This document shows positions 1 through 54,740 of a stretch of DNA of 63,978 bases, piece after piece. Position 1 is the stretch's first letter; every line of letters starts with the position of its first letter. Both the position numbers and the translations under genes were made by a program. The stretch is from a virus. The stretch lies in the IMG/VR virus record IMGVR_UViG_3300049043_000233, positions 1 through 63,978 of that record. One strand, 5' to 3'. The notes beneath the pieces are model-generated. The model did no database searches, was not told the DNA's origin, and saw only the letters and a list, made by a program, of their open reading frames with translations.

Positions 1-1885
1 CCAAGGTCGTGCCCCTGCCCGACCCGGCCCGGCTGCGGGTGGCCGCGGCGCGCGAGGCCCGCGTGGCCGTGGAGAGCGGCGTGCTCAGCGCCCTGCACGT
101 GCCTGGCGCCCACGGCGACGCCGCGTGTTACCTGGGCAACGGCATCGACGTGGGCACGCGCGAGGCGGGGGTCGCCCGCACGTGGACGTGAGCTTCGACG
201 TGCAGCTCGCGGAACCGACCTGGGCGGCGTGCGGGCGGACGTGACCGACTTCGGCTTCACGCTGCACGACTTCGGCTTCACGCTGTCGGAAGGACATGAG
301 CCTGGCCGAGTGCGACGACGGCGCGCCGGATTGAAGGAGTGCCGGTACCTGTGCAGCCTCGTCGAGGCCGGCGGGGACGTGCTCGGGAACATCTACGACC
401 TGTTCCAGTCGCAGCTCGACGACCTGCTGCGGCCGGCGCTCCAGAACCTGATCGACAACGTGCTGCAACAGCTCGGCGACCAGCCGCTGGCGGTCGTGGG
501 GCGGCTGCACCTGCACCTGGCCGCCTCGCTGCTGCCGTCGCTGGCCGACGCCTGGCCCTTCGACTTCCTGCTCGCGCCGAGCGCCGGCGGCCTGGTGGTG
601 CAGGCGGGCACCGGCGGCGGTGCCGATGGCGCCGAGCTCATGCTGGACGTGGGCCTGCGCTCGGGCGAGCACCCCTGCGTGCCTGCTCGCCGGCGCGGCG
701 GAGCCGGCGTTCCAGGCCGTGCCCCGCCGGCGCTCACGGGTGTGGGCGTGGACGGCCTGCCCTATCACCTCGGCTTCAGCGTGTCGGACGCCGTGGTCAA
801 CCGGGCGACGCGGGTCGGCTATCGAGCGGGCGCGCTGTGCCTGGTGCTGGACCTGAAGACGCTGGCATCGATCCGCGCGCCGAACCTGGACTCCAGCCTG
901 CTCGACCTGGCGCTGCCGGGCCTGACGGCGCTCACGCGGGGACCGCGACCGTTCATGCTCGTTGTGGAGCTGGGATTCCAGGCCGCCGACTTCGACCTGA
1001 TCCGGTTCCGGGAGGTCGTGCGGGCCGCAGGCGACGTGCTGCCGCGTGTGGGCCTGGACGTGCACCTGCCGCACCTGGTCTGTCGTTCTACGTGATGATT
1101 GAGGAGCGGTGGGTCCGCGTGTTCTCCGTGCGGACGGACGTGGACCTGGGGCTGGAGGTCCAGACGCCGACGCCGACGCAGCTGGCCCTGGCCGCCGCGC
1201 AACCGCAGATCGGAACGCTGGAAACCGCCTACGACGAGCCCGTTGCGGGTCAGAACCTGGATGCGATGCCAGCTTCTGCTGTCCCTGGCGCAGAGCTCGC
1301 TGCTCACGGAGGGCTGGCCTTCGACCTGCCCTTCGCGGGGCTCATCGAGCAGTTCGACGGGCTGTGCATCGACGCGGCATTGTGGATTCGTCGACCGCGG
1401 GCGGGCGACACCTGACGGCCGGGCTGCGACTCGCGGACACGCTCGGCGGCCCGCAACCGCTGGTGCGCGCCGAGGTCGACACGCGGGCCACGCTCGTCGA
1501 GCAGCGCGCCGGCACAGCCGTGGTGCAGGTCGAGGCCCCGGGCACCGCGCGCCCGCTGTATCAGTGGCGCTTCTGCCGCCGGCGGGCCCTGGAGCCCGCT
1601 TTTCACCGCGGACGCCGGGCGCATCGCGCTGCAAGCCGGGCGCCTGTGGCGGACGCCGCGCAGGTCGGTGGAGATCCGCGCTGTGGACGCCGCCGACCCG
1701 GACGCCGCGCCGGACCCGAACTGCGCAGGTCGCGCTCGCTCTGGGCCCGGAGTGGTCGAGCGCCCTGCTGCTGAGCTCCCCGAGCGCCGCCGGCTGCCAG
1801 TCCGGCCCCGGTCGCGGGGGGCCCGCCTCGGCGTTGCTCCTGGCGCTCGCCGTCCTTCTGCGCGGGCGCCGGCGCCGGGCCATGA
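1..1885 (+). pseudogene. Frameshift-broken myxobacterial-type surface protein with MYXO-CTERM-like tail
   Basis: Several long, protein-like stretches in different frames follow one another: one at about 340-690 (hydrophobic helical, containing DVLGNIYDLFQSQLDD), one at about 740-1080, one at about 1084-1370 and one to about 1560. The last stretch, near 1790-1880, gives a Cys/Gly/Pro segment, a hydrophobic helix (ASALLLALAVLL) and an Arg cluster. That is the tripartite layout of MYXO-CTERM sorting signals, which anchor exported proteins in Myxococcota. The function of the body is unknown to me. The 5' end lies outside the window. The switching of frames suggests indel errors in one original gene rather than many small genes. 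Confidence 0.55.
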
Positions 1886-3594
1886 TGCTGGTGGCCGGGA
1901 TCCTCGGGATCAAGCGGTTGCGGCGACAACGCCAAGGCCGACCGCACGCCCTGCACGGACACCTCGGAGTGCCCCGCGGGCCTGGTCTGCCTCGATGGCT
2001 TCTGCGAGCCCGTGCCGCACTGCGCGACCTCGGAGGACCTGCTGCCCGGCCTCGGAGTGCCGGCAGGGCGTGTGCTCGCCCGCCGCGTGCACGCACCGCG
2101 GACGCCGACTGCGCGGCCCCCAGCGAGTTGCTGGACGGCCTGTGCCAGCAGCGCCCCTGCGCCGGCGCGGCCGATTGCCCCCAGGGCGTGGCCGTGGGCG
2201 GTGGTACTGCCACCCCGGCCCCCCTGGCGGCCGGTGCGTCAGCAATCAGGTCTGCTTCGCGGATTCGATGTCTGCGCGCCCGTGGACTGCGCCGCGTGCC
2301 CGCCCGGTCAGGTCAAGCTCGCGGCGAACCCCGGCGACTTCCGCGGCCCGGCCTGCCCGCTGGACGAGGCCACCTGCGAGTGCGTCACCGCCCCGCCCGT
2401 GAACAGCAACGACATCGGCCGCCACGCCAGCATGGCCATCCGCCGTGGCGCTGGTGTTCGCCGCCTGGGACGCCGACTACGGCTATCTGGTGCTCGTCGA
2501 GGGCGTGGAGCGCGGCGAACTGCGCAAGACGTGGCTGGACGGCATCCCCGAGCAGGGCGAGGTGCAGGGCGACCCGGCTGGCCCCCGCCGCGGCATCACC
2601 ACGCCGGGCCCATCGCGGCCGCTACAGCAGCCTGATGGTGGACAACAAGGGCCGGCTGGTCATGGCCGACTACGACGCCAACGAGGGCGACCTGCGCTAC
2701 CTGCGGGACGACGGCGCCGGCAACTTCATCGCGCCCATTGTGGTGGACGCGCCGGCGACGTCCGCCGCTTCGCCCGCGTGCGCACGGACAGCCGGTCGCG
2801 GGTGCACATCGTCGCCCACGCGCCGCGCACGGCGGACGGGCAGACGGGCCTGCGCTACTCCGTCTCGCCGCACGGCGATCCGCAGGGGCCCGCGGACTTC
2901 TTCAACGAGACGATCGAGAGCGTGGCGCCGAGCCTGCCGAGCACCCCGCTCGTGGGCGACCCGGCCGACGGCACGGGCATCGCGCCCTGTCTGGCCATCG
3001 GGCCCGACGACCGCGCTTACGTCGCGTTCTACAACAGCCAGACGCGCCGGCTCACGCTGGCCGTGCAGGCCGCCGCGGGCTTTGCGCTGTATTCGTCGGC
3101 ACGCTCGCGCCCGCGCTGGCCGAGGACCCGAGCGAACGCTACGTGCGCTTCGCCGAGCACGACGTGGGGCGGTACTGCGACCTGATCGTGCGCCCCGACT
3201 CGACGCTCGCGCTGGTCTTCATGGACGCGGACACGCAGGCGCTGCTGCTGTACGAAGGCCCCGTGGAGGGCGGCGGCACGCTCTCGCTGGTGGACGCCGG
3301 CACGCCAGGGCAGCGCGGTTTCCTGGGCGCGGAACTGGCCCTGGCGCTGGACGTGCTCGGCGAGCCCGTCGTCGCGTATCAGGACCAGACGCAGAACGAC
3401 CTGCGCTGGACGGCAGCGGGGGCGTTTTCCTGCCCGGTCGATCCGTCGCGACGCCGGGGGCCCTGGGGTTCTACAATGGGCTGGCGATCGTCGCCGACAA
3501 GGTCGTGCTGGGCACCGTGGAGATGCGGGCCACCGCGACGGGACGCTCCGCGCTGTCGTTCGACGTTTTCCGCCTGGACCCACCGGCCAACTGA
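1882..3594 (+). pseudogene. Frameshift-broken Cys-rich secreted lipoprotein
   Basis: Begins at an ATGATG that overlaps the end of the preceding gene. A hydrophobic start (MLVAGILG) leads to a Cys in a lipobox-like position followed by GDNAKADRTPC, so a lipoprotein is likely. Residues to about 2,400 are Cys-rich (SECPAGLVCLDGFC), as in many myxobacterial exported proteins. From about 2,440 to 3,594 comes a repeat-like beta-rich region (LVMADYDANEGDLRYL; AFYNSQTRRLTLAVQ; GEPVVAYQDQTQNDLRW) resembling a beta-propeller. At least six frame changes are needed to read it through. Ends with FRLDPPAN and a stop. Confidence 0.55.
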
Positions 3595-3595
3595 C

Positions 3596-4401
3596 ATGCC
3601 CTTCTACGAAGTGTCGATTCACGAGTCCGTCGCCACCGTCGAAGCCACCCCGCCGACAAGCTCAACGCGCTCGACGCCGAGGCCTGGAATACCTGGGCCC
3701 CCTGATGCGCACGCTCGACGACGACCGCAGCGTGCGCGCTATTGTGCTGCGCGGGCGCGGCCGCGGTCTTCACCGCCGGCCTGGACGTGATGGACATCAT
3801 GGGCCGCCTGCCCGTGACGCCCGGCGCCCCGCCGGACGGCGAGCGCCAGGCGCGGCTGCAGGCGATGATCCCGCATGCAGGCCGCGGTGACCTCGCTGGA
3901 GCGCGGCGCGGGTGCCCTGCTCATCGCCGCCGTTCACGGCGCGTGCATCGGCGGCGGGGTGATGATCTACGGCCTGCGACATCCGCCTGTGTGCGGCGGA
4001 CGCCCGCTTCGGCGTGCGCGAGACGCGGCTGGCCATGGTGGCCATCTCGGCACGCTGCAGCGGCTGCCGGCGCTCGTCGGTCAGGGCATCGCCCGCGAAC
4101 TGGTGTTCAGCGGCCGGGACTTCGACGCCGCCTACGCCGAGCGCATCGGCCTGGTCAACCGCGTGCTGCCGGACGCCGATGCCTTCGCCGCCGCGGCACG
4201 CGCGCTCGCCCGCGAGATTGCCGACAACCCGCCGCTCGCCGGCAGGGCGCCAAGCAAGTGCTCAACGAGGCGCAACGCGGCATCGACCGGAGTCTGGAAT
4301 ACGTGGCCACGGTGGAACGTGGCGCACCTGCTGCTCCAGGATTCGGCGTCGCCGTGACGGCGTTCGTCACCAAGCAGAAACCCGAATTCGCCGGACGCTG
4401 A
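3596..4401 (+). pseudogene. Frameshift-broken enoyl-CoA hydratase/isomerase (crotonase family)
   Basis: Read across frames this gives a normal-length crotonase (about 268 residues): start MPFYEVSIHESVATVE, then PDKLNALDAEAWN, VRAIVLRGRGR, VFTAGLDVMDIMGRLP, the oxyanion-hole segment AAVHGACIGGGVMI, CDIRLCAADARFGVRE, and GRDFDAAYAERIGLVNRV, ending VTKQKPEFAGR. The family hydrates or isomerises enoyl-CoA esters in fatty-acid and related degradation. Roughly nine frame changes occur within 0.8 kb, far more than in the phage part. The gene would be functional if those were sequence errors. Confidence 0.75.
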
Positions 4402-4418
4402 CCGACAGGAGCCGCCCA

Positions 4419-4790
4419 TGGCCCACTTCATCGACGCCACCGTCATCCCCTCCGCCAAGCCCAAAATCATCCGCGAGTTCGCGCCGTGAACACCGAGACG
4501 GACGCGATCAGCATCGCCCAGATGGAGAGCCCCTCGGGCTGGGTCGAACTGGGCCAGTGCCCGGCCTTCGACGAGTACACCGTCGTCCTGCGGGCATGCT
4601 CCGCTGTCGCTTCGAGCAGAGCCACACGGACGTTTCCACGCTGGGCAGGCCATCCTGGTGGAGGCGGGCGAGTGGGTGCAGTACAGCACCCCGGGACCCG
4701 GACGGCGCGACCTACGTGGCCGTGTGCCGCCGGCCTTCACCCCGGCGTGCGCCCAACGCGACGAGGTCGAACGGACGGGGGTCGGTTTGC
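4419..4790 (+). pseudogene. Frameshift-broken cupin-domain protein
   Basis: ATG after a Shine-Dalgarno-like aggagcc. The reading MAHFIDATVIPSAKPKIIREF, then QMESPSGWVELGQCPAFDEY, RCRFEQSHTDVST, ILVEAGEWVQYSTPGPDGATYVAVC and a Pro/Ala-rich tail fits a small cupin (double-stranded beta-helix) of about 125 residues, probably metal-binding. The usual cupin motif 1 histidines are not evident in this copy. It is the last GC-rich gene before the composition changes, and its natural C-terminus may be cut by the junction. Confidence 0.5.
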
Positions 4791-4825
4791 CCCCATTGTG
4801 CGAATCCCACATTTAGAGGTTAATT
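4785..4825. other. Junction between GC-rich bacterial DNA and phage DNA
   Basis: Composition, codon use and frameshift density all change within about 40 bases: upstream is GC-rich and full of frame breaks, downstream begins AT-rich (atttagaggttaatttaagg). I see no integrase, attachment repeat or insertion-sequence end here. A chimeric join of two source genomes is the simplest explanation. A physical phage end ligated to unrelated DNA is possible. Confidence 0.7.
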
Positions 4826-4849
4826 TAAGGATTGCTACAGATCAGAAGC

Positions 4850-4873
4850 GCTAATCGATTAGCAATGCTAATC
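4850..4873. promoter_or_regulatory. 14-bp perfect palindrome plus extra half-site
   Basis: GCTAATCGATTAGC at 4850-4863 is a perfect palindrome, and a further GCTAATC follows at 4867-4873. The arrangement fits a dimeric DNA-binding protein site. It sits at the start of the non-coding block of the phage part; no partner protein can be named. Confidence 0.35.
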
Positions 4874-4926
4874 ATAGAGCAGTAGTACGCCTGTTCTAGG
4901 CAGGGTGGGGGCGGGGCACCCCTTTC

Positions 4927-5000
4927 AGAAGCGACGTAATTTTTGAATGACTTTTTTCATCTCCCCTCCAGAATCGACGCTATTTTTGAACGACTTTTTT
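4927..5000. repeat. Imperfect tandem direct repeat, about 31 bp, two copies
   Basis: Copies at 4927-4957 and 4970-5000 share the pattern AGAAnCGACGnnATTTTTGAAnGACTTTTTT, with a 43-base period. Each ends in a six-T run. Part of a 400-base non-coding block with further repeats; role unknown (origin, packaging or regulatory). Confidence 0.55.
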
Positions 5001-7355: not shown

Positions 7356-8804
7356 ATGAAGCTGAAAGAACAGGCAAAGTGCGAAAAGATTGCTCGCACT
7401 GGACGAGTGCAAAGCTGGATGGATGATTTGGAAGGCAGGCTTCCGGTGAGCTGCACTGTCTTCGTGGTGGAAGATTCAATGGAAGGAAAAGATGGCATTG
7501 AAGCATCGTGGCGTTTTGTTTCTCATGGTCTTCGCAATGGTGCTGGCGTTGCAGTGCATTTGTCCGAGCTGCGAGGGAAAGGTGAAGAAAATGGTAAGGG
7601 CCTGGTGGCTAGTGGGCCAGTAAGTTTTGGCAAGATTTATTCTGCGCTCAATGAAATCTTGCGTCGTGGTGGCGTCTACAAAAACGGCGCTGTTGTGCTT
7701 CATCTTGATTACAATCATCCCGACATCATTGATTTCATCAATGCTTCCCGTCAAGAACTTCCGTGGGTGAAGAGATGCGTGAATGTTGATGAGCAATTTC
7801 TTGAACAAGCTTCTGAAGAATTGATTGAGGCCTTGCTGAAAGGCATTGCTTCGGGCGATATTTGGCTAAACAAGATTCGTTACGATCGCAATGGAAAACG
7901 CATTCGTCCAAATGTCTGCCTCGAAGTTTATCTTCCTCATCGTGGCACTTGTCTTCTTCAGCATGTCAACATGGGTGCTTGTGGCATCAATGAACTAACA
8001 AATGTTTTTGTTGAAGGCATGCGGCAGCTTTGCGAGCTTCATGCCAATACTGGCGTGGGAGACACTGGCGAATACCTTCCCCCCTCCATTGACAAACAAG
8101 TGGGATTAGGCATGCTTGGCCTTGCTAATTTCTTGGCCATCCATGGCATCTCCTATAAGGACTTTGGTGATGCCCTGGAAGCCTATCTCGACGACGACCC
8201 CCACCCTTGGTGCCATTATTGGGGTGAGAAGCCTGCTGGAAAGGCCGTAGCAGCCCTTGGTCAAGCCATTCATGCTGCCGCCAATATCGCCAAGGCCCAC
8301 AAGATGGAACGAGCCTTCTGCATTGCCCCCACGGCTTCATGCTCCTATCGCTATCTCGATTCCAAAGGCTTCACGACTGCCCCTGAAATTGCCCCTCCCA
8401 TTGGAAGGCTTGTTGATCGGGACTCTGGCACTTTTGGCGTGGAGAGTTTTGACTATGGGGAAGTGGAAATTGCCGCTGAAGTGGGCTGGAATGTTTTCTT
8501 TAAGGTGGCAAATGGCATTGTTGAACTTTACCGGCGCACTGGTCTTTTCCATGGCTATTCGTTCAACACTTGGGGAGATCTCGTCACTTACGACCGAGAG
8601 TTCCTGGAGGATTGGCTAGAATCTTCTCAGACAAGCATGTACTATTCCCTGCAGGTTCTCCCGGACATGCAAAGGAAAGACGATGCTTATGCTGCCCTAG
8701 ACGACTCCTTTAAGAGCATGTTTGGCTTCGAGGACGACGAAGTCAAGGGAGAGGCTGTCGCTTGCAATGTAGAAGCTGGTTTCTGTAGTGCATGCGCTGA
8801 ATGA
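7356..8804 (+). CDS. nrdA: Class I ribonucleotide reductase alpha subunit, N-terminally minimal
   Basis: A 482-residue catalytic subunit that reduces ribonucleotides to deoxyribonucleotides. Visible landmarks: redox cysteine C33 (LPVSCTVF), the thiyl-radical motif NVCLE with C188, its redox partner in GACGINELTN, the finger loop CIAPTASCSY, a radical-transfer Tyr pair at about 429-430 (SMYYSLQV) and a C-terminal CSACAE tail for re-reduction. E. coli-type NrdA is about 760 residues; here almost everything before the first redox cysteine is absent, including any ATP cone, so allosteric activity control is probably lost. The beta-subunit gene follows. Short phage RNRs are known, but classes are easily confused; the Tyr pair and partner gene favour class I. 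Confidence 0.85.
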   Translation: MKLKEQAKCEKIARTGRVQSWMDDLEGRLPVSCTVFVVEDSMEGKDGIEASWRFVSHGLRNGAGVAVHLSELRGKGEENGKGLVASGPVSFGKIYSALNEILRRGGVYKNGAVVLHLDYNHPDIIDFINASRQELPWVKRCVNVDEQFLEQASEELIEALLKGIASGDIWLNKIRYDRNGKRIRPNVCLEVYLPHRGTCLLQHVNMGACGINELTNVFVEGMRQLCELHANTGVGDTGEYLPPSIDKQVGLGMLGLANFLAIHGISYKDFGDALEAYLDDDPHPWCHYWGEKPAGKAVAALGQAIHAAANIAKAHKMERAFCIAPTASCSYRYLDSKGFTTAPEIAPPIGRLVDRDSGTFGVESFDYGEVEIAAEVGWNVFFKVANGIVELYRRTGLFHGYSFNTWGDLVTYDREFLEDWLESSQTSMYYSLQVLPDMQRKDDAYAALDDSFKSMFGFEDDEVKGEAVACNVEAGFCSACAE

Positions 8805-52797: not shown

Positions 52798-53039
52798 GCG
52801 CACAACAGTGCGCCGAGGATCAAGCGTGGTGGGACAGTCTTGATTACAACTCACGAGCGCAAGCATTTCGCCAGATTTGCAAACTTATTCACAAGGCTGA
52901 AGTGGAGAAGCGCAGCACCTACCGTTTTGCCATGTATGAGGTATTTGATCTGGACTATGGGGATGGGCTAGACCACTATATGACTTTACATAATTTGCTT
53001 AGCAGGGCCACGGACTCGCCCGGTTATTCCAGCTTGTAA
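52668..53039 (+). CDS. Conserved helical phage protein
   Basis: About 123 residues from GTG 52668 (another GTG at 52701). LLDSPEFKQLQASLRALSAQ, AWWDSLDYNSRAQAFRQICK, EVEKRSTYRFAMYEVFDLDY, GLDHYMTLHNLLSRATD. A helical protein of a type I recall from cyanophages, function unknown. Overlaps the lysis cassette convergently by 16 bases. Confidence 0.55.
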   Translation: MAKVPPNGNEQVESSSADGDRPDGRALLDSPEFKQLQASLRALSAQQCAEDQAWWDSLDYNSRAQAFRQICKLIHKAEVEKRSTYRFAMYEVFDLDYGDGLDHYMTLHNLLSRATDSPGYSSL

Positions 53040-53413
53040 GTGATGCGCAGCTCCCCTCCGAGAGCTTTCACTTCATCAGAAGCATCGGCGGCGGCTTCGG
53101 TGATGATCATCACGCTTGGCACTGAAGCATCTGGCACTGGAATGATTGTGGACCTCGGGAAAAGCTCCTGAGCCTTTGCTGCGAGCCTTTCTGAGCGCTG
53201 CTGCTTCTCTTCTTTGTCCCATTGCTCCACCAATGCCTTAGCTTGCTTGTCAACGGCTTGGAGCGTGGCCTGGGTTTTCCATTCTGTCCATGCAGGACGG
53301 CACCAATCAAGCAGTTGCTTGTACCACCATTTAGAGACAATGGAAGGGAAGCGTTTGGCTGTTTCAAGGGCCAGTTCGTAACAAACGGCCAAAAACCAAC
53401 GTTCCCTCTCCAT
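53024..53413 (-). CDS. Hypothetical protein downstream of lysin
   Basis: 129 residues from ATG 53413, 4 bases after the lysin stop. RERWFLAVCYELALETAKRF, WWYKQLLDWCRPAWTEWKTQ, EEKQQRSERLAAKAQELFPR, TEAAADASDEVKALGGELRI. Long basic/acidic helices, no signal peptide. Possibly a lysis accessory by position only. Confidence 0.5.
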   Translation of the reverse strand: MERERWFLAVCYELALETAKRFPSIVSKWWYKQLLDWCRPAWTEWKTQATLQAVDKQAKALVEQWDKEEKQQRSERLAAKAQELFPRSTIIPVPDASVPSVMIITEAAADASDEVKALGGELRITYKLE

Positions 53414-53417
53414 TGCT

Positions 53418-54359
53418 CTATCCCTCTTGATAGACGCTGACAAAAATTGTTCCTTTCTTCGCGAGAGGAAGGATTTTGTCGCGCAAATCAATGTTATGAG
53501 CGCGAACGCAACCATAAGTTGGGAATAGTTTCTGCTCTGGAGCCCATGCACCAGGCCATCCACATGCAGAGCCCCCACCATGAATCATGATTCCAGCCCT
53601 TCCATTATCAGCTTCTTGATTCTCTAGCTCAATCAAATCAAAGCTATACCAGCCATAGGCCATGAGAGTGCGATCGTATTGGGTTTTTTCTCGATTGATC
53701 TCATAGTCCTTGTAGATGGTGCCCACTTTATACAGGCCAGGAGGCGTGTCAGAATTTTGAACCTTCCATTCAGAATCGCTATGCTGCCCACGAGCGAGGC
53801 ATGGAATCATCCACAAAAGACTGCCATCAAAGGCAAACGCCTTCATTGTTTCACTAGCATCATTGACAATCAAATGAGAATCACCAGCCTTAAAGCCAAA
53901 ATCTTGGGGACGTCTCTTGGGACCAATCATTGTAGTTTTTGTGGATTCGGGAGAGTATTCTTTCATTAGCCTTGAGAGCTTTGCTGGATACCCGGGATCA
54001 GTGGCATAGCTTTGCTGATAAAGCATGCGAGCCGCTGCATAGCGATTGGGAGCATTATTGACTCCCTTGAACTGGCGATAGTCTTTGTACCAGCGAGTGA
54101 TGAGAAATTCAATGCAGGCTTCAAGGCTCGGAAAGTCAATGAAACCCGCCTTAATTACCACCCATTTCCCATCGTAAAACTCCTTTGTCGAGACAGTTGT
54201 ACCGTCTCCTTTGAGGCCAAGGAAGTTGTTTTGACCAGAAGTGTGCTTGCCAAAACCACTTTCAAGGCAGCATTGAGCCGCCACGAGCTCTGGGAAGCGA
54301 GCGCCGCGATAGCGGGCCACTTCAAAGCATCGATTCCAGAAAGCCTGTTCGGCTGACAC
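53418..54359 (-). CDS. Two-domain endolysin: glucosaminidase plus YkuD-like L,D-transpeptidase
   Basis: 313 residues. Residues about 1-150: AFWNRCFEVARYRGARFPEL, AQCCLESGFGKHTSGQNNFL, YRQFKGVNNAPNRYAAARML, LYQQSYATDPGYPAKLSRLM, a GH73-type N-acetylglucosaminidase with catalytic Glu in CLESGFG. Residues about 165-313 carry the YkuD signature: AGIMIHGGG and FPTYGCVRAHNIDL, i.e. His and a Cys-Arg pair (S/TxGCxR). YkuD enzymes make or cut peptidoglycan cross-links. A cutting role in lysis is an inference. A TM peptide is encoded 3 bases upstream. Confidence 0.8.
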   Translation of the reverse strand: MSAEQAFWNRCFEVARYRGARFPELVAAQCCLESGFGKHTSGQNNFLGLKGDGTTVSTKEFYDGKWVVIKAGFIDFPSLEACIEFLITRWYKDYRQFKGVNNAPNRYAAARMLYQQSYATDPGYPAKLSRLMKEYSPESTKTTMIGPKRRPQDFGFKAGDSHLIVNDASETMKAFAFDGSLLWMIPCLARGQHSDSEWKVQNSDTPPGLYKVGTIYKDYEINREKTQYDRTLMAYGWYSFDLIELENQEADNGRAGIMIHGGGSACGWPGAWAPEQKLFPTYGCVRAHNIDLRDKILPLAKKGTIFVSVYQEG

Positions 54360-54362
54360 TGC

Positions 54363-54506
54363 TCAGTCCTTCACGCGAAAGACGGCCTTCAGACCAGCCA
54401 TGGAAAGCTGGATGAGGTTGTTGCTCTTCCAGGGAGTGTGTTGAATCACTTGGTCCAGGGCGGCAATGATGATGCCACCAACAACGAACCATTCAGCGCC
54501 GGACAT
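54363..54506 (-). CDS. Candidate small holin
   Basis: 47 residues ending 3 bases before the endolysin start. SGAEWFVVGGIIIAALDQVI gives one hydrophobic helix, then NNLIQLSMAGLKAVFRVKD with a basic end. Size, a single membrane helix and position fit a small holin. Confidence 0.6.
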   Translation of the reverse strand: MSGAEWFVVGGIIIAALDQVIQHTPWKSNNLIQLSMAGLKAVFRVKD

Positions 54507-54530: not shown

Positions 54531-54740
54531 TTAGCGGTTGATTTCAAGCGAGCGCACCCTGGCCTCCAGCTCTTTCATATTGTTCGTCAGTGCATCTAGC
54601 TTTTCAATGACAGTTTCCACTTGTTCGGCAATGCGAGCCTGCTGCATGCCAATGCCAACCATCGTTCCTCCAGTGGCCAGAAGCATGCCGGCCGTCACAC
54701 TTACTGCCAAATTGGCGAGCTGCTCTTGCCAGCTTTTCAC
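54531..54740 (-). CDS. Membrane protein with coiled coil (lysis cassette)
   Basis: 69 residues. WQEQLANLAVSVTAGMLLAT then GGTMVGIGM is a transmembrane helix, followed by a coiled coil (ARIAEQVETVIEKLDALTNN; MKELEARVRSLEINR). The layout is like small inner-membrane lysis partners (i-spanin or holin-associated). Confidence 0.65.
   Translation of the reverse strand: MKSWQEQLANLAVSVTAGMLLATGGTMVGIGMQQARIAEQVETVIEKLDALTNNMKELEARVRSLEINR

Follow-up and report, generated by a model that had tools for sequence, protein, structure and literature searches.

Our findings point to a bifunctional cyanophage endolysin in which a GH73 glucosaminidase head would cut the glycan strands and a transpeptidase-fold YkuD domain would, in the reading that we favor, weaken the wall through its peptides by hydrolysis. 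The gene lies in the window, by which we mean the whole stretch of viral DNA analyzed here (63,978 nucleotides; IMG/VR record IMGVR_UViG_3300049043_000233). An earlier note had read the open reading frame as an endolysin joining a glucosaminidase to a YkuD L,D-transpeptidase domain, on the basis of the motifs CLESGFG, MIHGGG and TYGCVRAHN. All three motifs are present in its translation. The glucosaminidase assignment is upheld by Pfam, and the YkuD assignment by a structural model with the YkuD fold and by fold matches in the PDB. The gene and its parts are as follows.

53418..54359, minus strand: GH73-YkuD endolysin gene, 313 amino acids with a GTG start (open reading frame, Pfam, PHROGs, homology to S-CBS4 gp063)
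53946..54338, minus strand: GH73 (glucosaminidase) head, residues 8-138 (PF01832, phmmer matches)
53421..53930, minus strand: YkuD domain, residues 144-313 (PF03734, model and fold search, invariant His and Cys)
53580-53582, minus strand: His260, the YkuD catalytic His
53508-53510, minus strand: Cys284, the YkuD catalytic Cys, followed by Arg286 and Asn289

GH73-YkuD lysins are abundant in cyanophage contigs: the architecture occurs in the window, in phage S-CBS4 and in more than 100 distinct IMG/VR proteins. Since there are more than 100 distinct relatives over the full length, a chance origin of the fusion can be dismissed. Purifying selection is equal on the two domains, with dN/dS of about 0.10 (medians of 0.107 for YkuD and 0.104 for GH73 in 65 full-length viral lysins). 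The GH73 head matches the Glucosaminidase profile PF01832 above the Pfam cut-off (E 1.5e-16, residues 23-136) and, in phmmer searches, the structures of AtlA, the autolysin Auto and FlgJ. Glu33 of LESGFG, within the LESxxG motif, is invariant in two alignments (A2 and A6) and is the residue expected to be the catalytic acid.

The YkuD domain of the window matches PF03734 (E 1e-3, residues 162-293) at 20.1 bits, slightly short of the cut-off of 23.4, a threshold that is passed by relatives 58-76% identical to it, namely those of S-CBS4 (28.0 bits), B23 (35.4) and S-CRM01 (37.9). Because a profile built from the sequence of this domain met only chance matches in the PDB, we adopted a fold search with an AlphaFold2 model (pLDDT 89, pTM 0.87). 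The best matches were the YkuD-fold enzymes 7o21, 6xj6 and 1y7m, with probability 1.00. The L,D-carboxypeptidases Bd1075 and Pgp2 came out on top, with TM scores of 0.53-0.57; B. subtilis YkuD reached 0.50, so that the ranking of this predicted model towards carboxypeptidases is shallow.

The active-site residues argue that this domain works as an enzyme. The catalytic motif His...[S/T]-x-G-C is present as H260 and T281-Y-G-C284; the 20 residues between His260 and Thr281 make a longer gap than the roughly 15-18 residues quoted for the family (PMC9638812), and an invariant GWPGAW lies between His260 and Cys284. Both catalytic residues are found in 106 of 106 distinct domains (69 viral and 37 cellular) while flanking positions vary, and downstream of the cysteine Arg286 is kept in 105 and Asn289 in all 106. 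Among 65 viral lysins the Cys284 codon alternates between TGC (36) and TGT (29) and the cysteine is never lost. From this pattern the domain is very probably a live enzyme acting on stem peptides, and because His and Cys are invariant, a tail that is inactive or only binds the wall appears unlikely.

The genes on either side of the lysin form a cassette that resembles a lysis module and contains three further members.

54363..54506, minus strand: 47-residue one-helix membrane protein, holin-like (sequence reading, hydropathy, synteny, homologue S-CBS4 gp064)
54531..54740, minus strand: 69-residue protein resembling a holin or spanin, with a single transmembrane helix and a coiled coil (open reading frame, synteny)
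53024..53413, minus strand: 129-residue phrog_6464 protein, last gene of the cassette (phrog_6464, E 1.4e-8)

Both small membrane-protein genes sit directly upstream of the lysin in all 86 related viral loci of this cassette that have enough upstream sequence, and we infer that their products are holins. The lysin itself lacks a signal-peptide-like N-terminus by simple hydropathy (maximum 0.48 over 19 residues). These features, together with the PHROGs and S-CBS4 annotations, agree with the endolysin assignment of the earlier note, with lysis itself predicted from sequence. PHROGs contained no clear spanin for the cassette, the closest being a weak match of the 69-residue protein to the Rz-like spanin family phrog_739 (E 0.028). 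The phrog_6464 gene follows the lysin directly in 89 loci, and its product is likely to be part of lysis. S-CBS4 shares these lysis genes as well as the neighboring genes for thymidylate synthase and dCTP deaminase. The phrog_6464 protein of the window ends in LGGELRI, and its gene, which lies behind the lysin at nearly all loci, is also found behind a standalone YkuD gene in two contigs (L237 and L274), the latter of which carries psbA.

Comparison with relatives shows how freely the rest of the lysin changes around YkuD. In a sample of the best 80 matches per scan, from which counts of architectures are not to be read as frequencies, YkuD is also joined to glycosidases other than GH73: GH19, in the order YkuD-GH19, in B23 gp319 and at least three IMG/VR proteins; GH24, as GH24-YkuD, in picocyanobacterial genomes and, as two overlapping frames, in S-CRM01 (g113 for GH24 and g112 for YkuD); and, in one Cyanobium genome, a lysozyme domain matching phrog_90, which we name and take to be lambda-R-like. 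In S-CRM01 the overlap lies at 2701-2830 of locus L026 and the end of GH24 is read in the g112 frame, which represents either a programmed frameshift or a sequencing error. Elsewhere YkuD has a gene of its own, with a separate gene for GH24 or GH19 directly behind it, in at least 15 distinct cases. The fusions and adjacent genes together suggest, by Rosetta-stone linkage, that YkuD is functionally tied to glycosidases. A helical module of about 45 residues ('...AAKYF...AW.WLE...EF...YR') lies beside GH73, GH19, GH24 and C39 domains in cyanophage lysins (L025, L020, L022 and L027) and is a candidate wall-binding module.

The GH73 head in turn has other partners. Heads 47-64% identical to that of the window carry a C39-type cysteine peptidase where the window lysin has YkuD, as in S-EIVl, S-CBS1, S-CBP3, PSS2 and IMG/VR proteins, and in S-RIM2 a GH73 head is joined to an M15 peptidase. 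At least 12 distinct GH73-C39 lysins from IMG/VR (including L020-L022) occupy exactly the cassette of the GH73-YkuD lysins. YkuD therefore fills a place that is taken by a peptidase in these sister lysins, and because YkuD is exchanged with C39 and M15 peptidases its role is likely to be directed at the wall peptides. The earlier note had suggested that the YkuD domain may cut cross-links or block repair during lysis; of this the exchange makes the peptide target likely, and both hydrolysis and transfer would fit the sequence.

In some phages the endolysin slot is taken by YkuD alone. Seven contigs from different metagenomes (L356, L357, L358 and L390-L393) have an intact cassette in which this slot encodes only a YkuD protein of 170-172 residues, amounting to at least five distinct proteins in two lineages. 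One of them is L392, which is 98.3% and 98.1% identical in DNA to the GH73-bearing L387 on the two sides of 441 nucleotides that are absent from L392; the missing stretch holds the GH73 head of L387, and the YkuD frame of L392 starts directly after the stop codon of the small membrane-protein gene. In a tree that included the window sequence (of which L023 is a duplicate), the two YkuD-alone groups sit apart within the GH73-YkuD lysins. A single grouping of the five YkuD-alone cassette sequences tested was rejected (p-AU 0.003), with the standalone YkuD of L388, next to a GH19 gene, counted among the fused lysins. The tree thus indicates at least two independent losses of the GH73 head. Searches with PF01832, PF00959 and PF01464, whose positive controls worked, found no GH73, GH24 or SLT domain elsewhere in the YkuD-alone contigs searched; these are fragments, none longer than 22 kb, and another glycosidase may be encoded beyond them. 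That the glycan cutter can be swapped, split off or dropped while YkuD stays in the slot suggests that YkuD has a working role in lysis. It is conceivable, if doubtful, that the essential muralytic activity belongs to YkuD and that the glycosidase is an optional helper, such that a holin-delivered YkuD would lyse the host alone by cutting L,D bonds. The YkuD-alone lineages are a natural test of this idea which, if true, would define a new catalytic class of endolysin.

How the two activities might combine can be outlined from the cassette and from what is known of the YkuD family. We envision a scenario in which the lysin, having no signal peptide, would accumulate in the cytoplasm until the holin-like proteins encoded upstream release it to the periplasm, where the GH73 head would cleave the glycan strand. 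Cys284, activated by His260, would attack the carbonyl of the third stem residue (meso-DAP), as enzymes of this family do, to give an acyl-enzyme. Its resolution by water would cut 3-3 cross-links (L,D-endopeptidase), trim tetrapeptides to tripeptides (L,D-carboxypeptidase), or both, and the tripeptide stems left by trimming could not be cross-linked again. Carboxypeptidase activity alone would open no cross-link. Both the bond specificity and hydrolysis as the net reaction are what we infer for the YkuD tail.

Such chemistry has precedents. In YkuD enzymes the acyl-enzyme forms at the third stem residue and the acceptor decides between transpeptidation, L,D-carboxypeptidase and L,D-endopeptidase activity, LdtCd2 being an L,D-endopeptidase and thus a hydrolytic member (PMC12729407). 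Bd1075, Pgp2 and Csd6 are L,D-carboxypeptidases (PMC8938487; PMC10653827), and the toxin Tlde1a owes its killing to two activities, L,D-carboxypeptidase and D-amino acid exchange (PMC9638812). For the cyanophage domain, hydrolysis is favored by its replacement with C39 or M15 peptidases in other lysins, by its use as or in a lysin and by the fold matches to Bd1075 and Pgp2, whereas Arg286, the residue of most transpeptidases, is a pointer towards transfer; this active-site residue is transpeptidase-like while the nearest folds, as modeled, are L,D-carboxypeptidases. The arginine two residues past the cysteine is shared with LdtD and LdtB and is replaced by Ala or Val in Csd6, Pgp2, DpaA and Bd1075 (PMC8938487, PMC10653827). 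Bd1075 and Pgp2, of the Csd6 group, share the fold and the His-Cys pair with the window domain but have Val or Ala where it has Arg, and are secreted shape enzymes of cells (PMC8938487); retention of Arg286 accordingly sets the window protein outside this L,D-carboxypeptidase group. Tlde1a likewise uses a YkuD-type fold as a weapon against the bacterial wall, but it is a single-domain T6SS effector of the PF10908 family (PMC9638812), a family to which the window protein has no match and B23 only one of E 0.15. Wall weakening through the peptides is the most likely function because C39 and M15 peptidases take the place of YkuD in sister lysins, and on this comparative evidence we consider net hydrolysis during lysis somewhat probable.

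An alternative that we regard as unlikely, although it deserves attention, is that the tail acts as a transpeptidase during lysis and moves stems onto other stems or free D-amino acids, either using up the donor stems and thereby blocking wall repair by the host or editing the wall to suit the attached glycosidase. The presence of the transpeptidase-type arginine in nearly all domains fits this idea, as do the lysin-type muramidase TtsA, which cuts solely wall edited by YcbB (PMC6996933), and the D-amino acid exchange by which Tlde1a kills in part (PMC9638812). New 3-3 links, however, should strengthen a wall under lysis, peptidases otherwise occupy the slot, and in the two YkuD-alone lineages the cassette has no glycosidase for an editing enzyme to serve.

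It is far less probable that the YkuD fold serves purely as a wall-binding module, aiming GH73 at peptide stems with its chemistry dispensable. Many Gram-negative lysins do pair a binding with a catalytic domain, and Pfam recognizes no other binding domain in this one. Such a role is nevertheless hard to reconcile with a His and a Cys that stay fixed while their flanks vary, with a cysteine codon that is free to change synonymously, or with YkuD genes that stand by themselves next to GH24 or GH19 genes or alone in the lysis cassette.

Least probable of all is a spanin-like or DpaA-like amidase role in outer-membrane disruption, in which the tail would cut links between wall and envelope proteins: we know of no wall-anchored lipoprotein in picocyanobacteria that could be its substrate, and the cyanophage domains have Arg where DpaA has Ala, which disfavors this activity for the window protein even though the YkuD enzyme DpaA does detach Braun's lipoprotein (PMC10653827) and the cassette has no clear spanin.

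Parts of this picture were already known. The endolysin of S-CBS4 (gp063, AEX56030.1, annotated as N-acetylmuramidase / endolysin) is 76% identical to the window lysin over the full length and has the same two domains in the same cassette (gp064 and gp065), although its annotation omits the YkuD part, and the profile of PHROGs family 3513 ("endolysin") matches both GH73 and YkuD. PhaLP lists YkuD in its Table 1 as a rare phage-lysin domain with 10 entries and places it in the activity group of the C39, M15 and M23 peptidases (PMC8310338); a gut lysin with the order GH25-choline binding-YkuD has been described (PMC13284279) and YkuD is counted in the lysin domain list used in PMC5017753. The earlier note had called YkuD unusual as a lysin module, which holds for its rarity in PhaLP but not for cyanophage contigs, where it is abundant, and the domain had already been listed. 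In these three catalogues YkuD appears as a domain count or a single gut example, and we found in them no biochemical test of YkuD, no swaps among GH73, GH24 and GH19 and no slot with YkuD alone. Nor did we find, in a literature search that covered work outside subscription papers, any functional study or biochemistry of cyanophage GH73-YkuD lysins. Relative to the literature searched, what appears new from sequence comparison is that these lysins are abundant in cyanophages, that glycosidases of four kinds trade places beside YkuD, that C39 can stand in for YkuD within a single cassette and that the glycosidase has been lost repeatedly.

Endolysins are classed by the bond they cut, as glycosidases, amidases or endopeptidases. 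A transpeptidase-fold domain that is strongly selected, exchanged with peptidases and sometimes the sole occupant of the slot raises the question of whether a YkuD enzyme can lyse cells. Lysis by YkuD would extend the chemistry of lysins and has a bearing on the cross-linking of picocyanobacterial walls.

Related genes also occur in cellular genomes. GH24-YkuD genes lie at L109 and nine more picocyanobacterial loci (Cyanobium/Synechococcus genomes), and these loci have a conserved gene for a protein with two predicted membrane helices some 350 bases upstream of GH24, a holin-lysin-like pair that is perhaps domesticated. A further 18 genome loci (L120 and 17 more) encode a short N-terminal domain joined to YkuD with no recognized glycosidase; the same short domain is N-terminal in S-CRM01 g113. 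The lambda-R-like-YkuD gene (276-2279 of the Cyanobium contig L130) has a gene for a tail baseplate hub (PF05954) nearby and may be borne by a prophage or an injection system. Open reading frames upstream of the genome loci P0001 and P0004 were set aside as spurious frames of high-GC DNA. A viral structure library contains more distant YkuD-like folds, one in a 623-residue protein of Prochlorococcus phage P-TIM68 and another in a 933-residue GH19 protein from Synechococcus phage S-N03.

Two other regions of the window stand out. Within positions 1-5000, the first 4 kb have a G+C content of about 73% versus about 52% elsewhere, and three long open reading frames tested there have no Pfam match; the region may be host flank, a foreign insert or an assembly join. 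At 7356-8804 an open reading frame of 482 residues matches the ribonucleotide reductase barrel domain at the first 107 positions only and is perhaps an interrupted gene.
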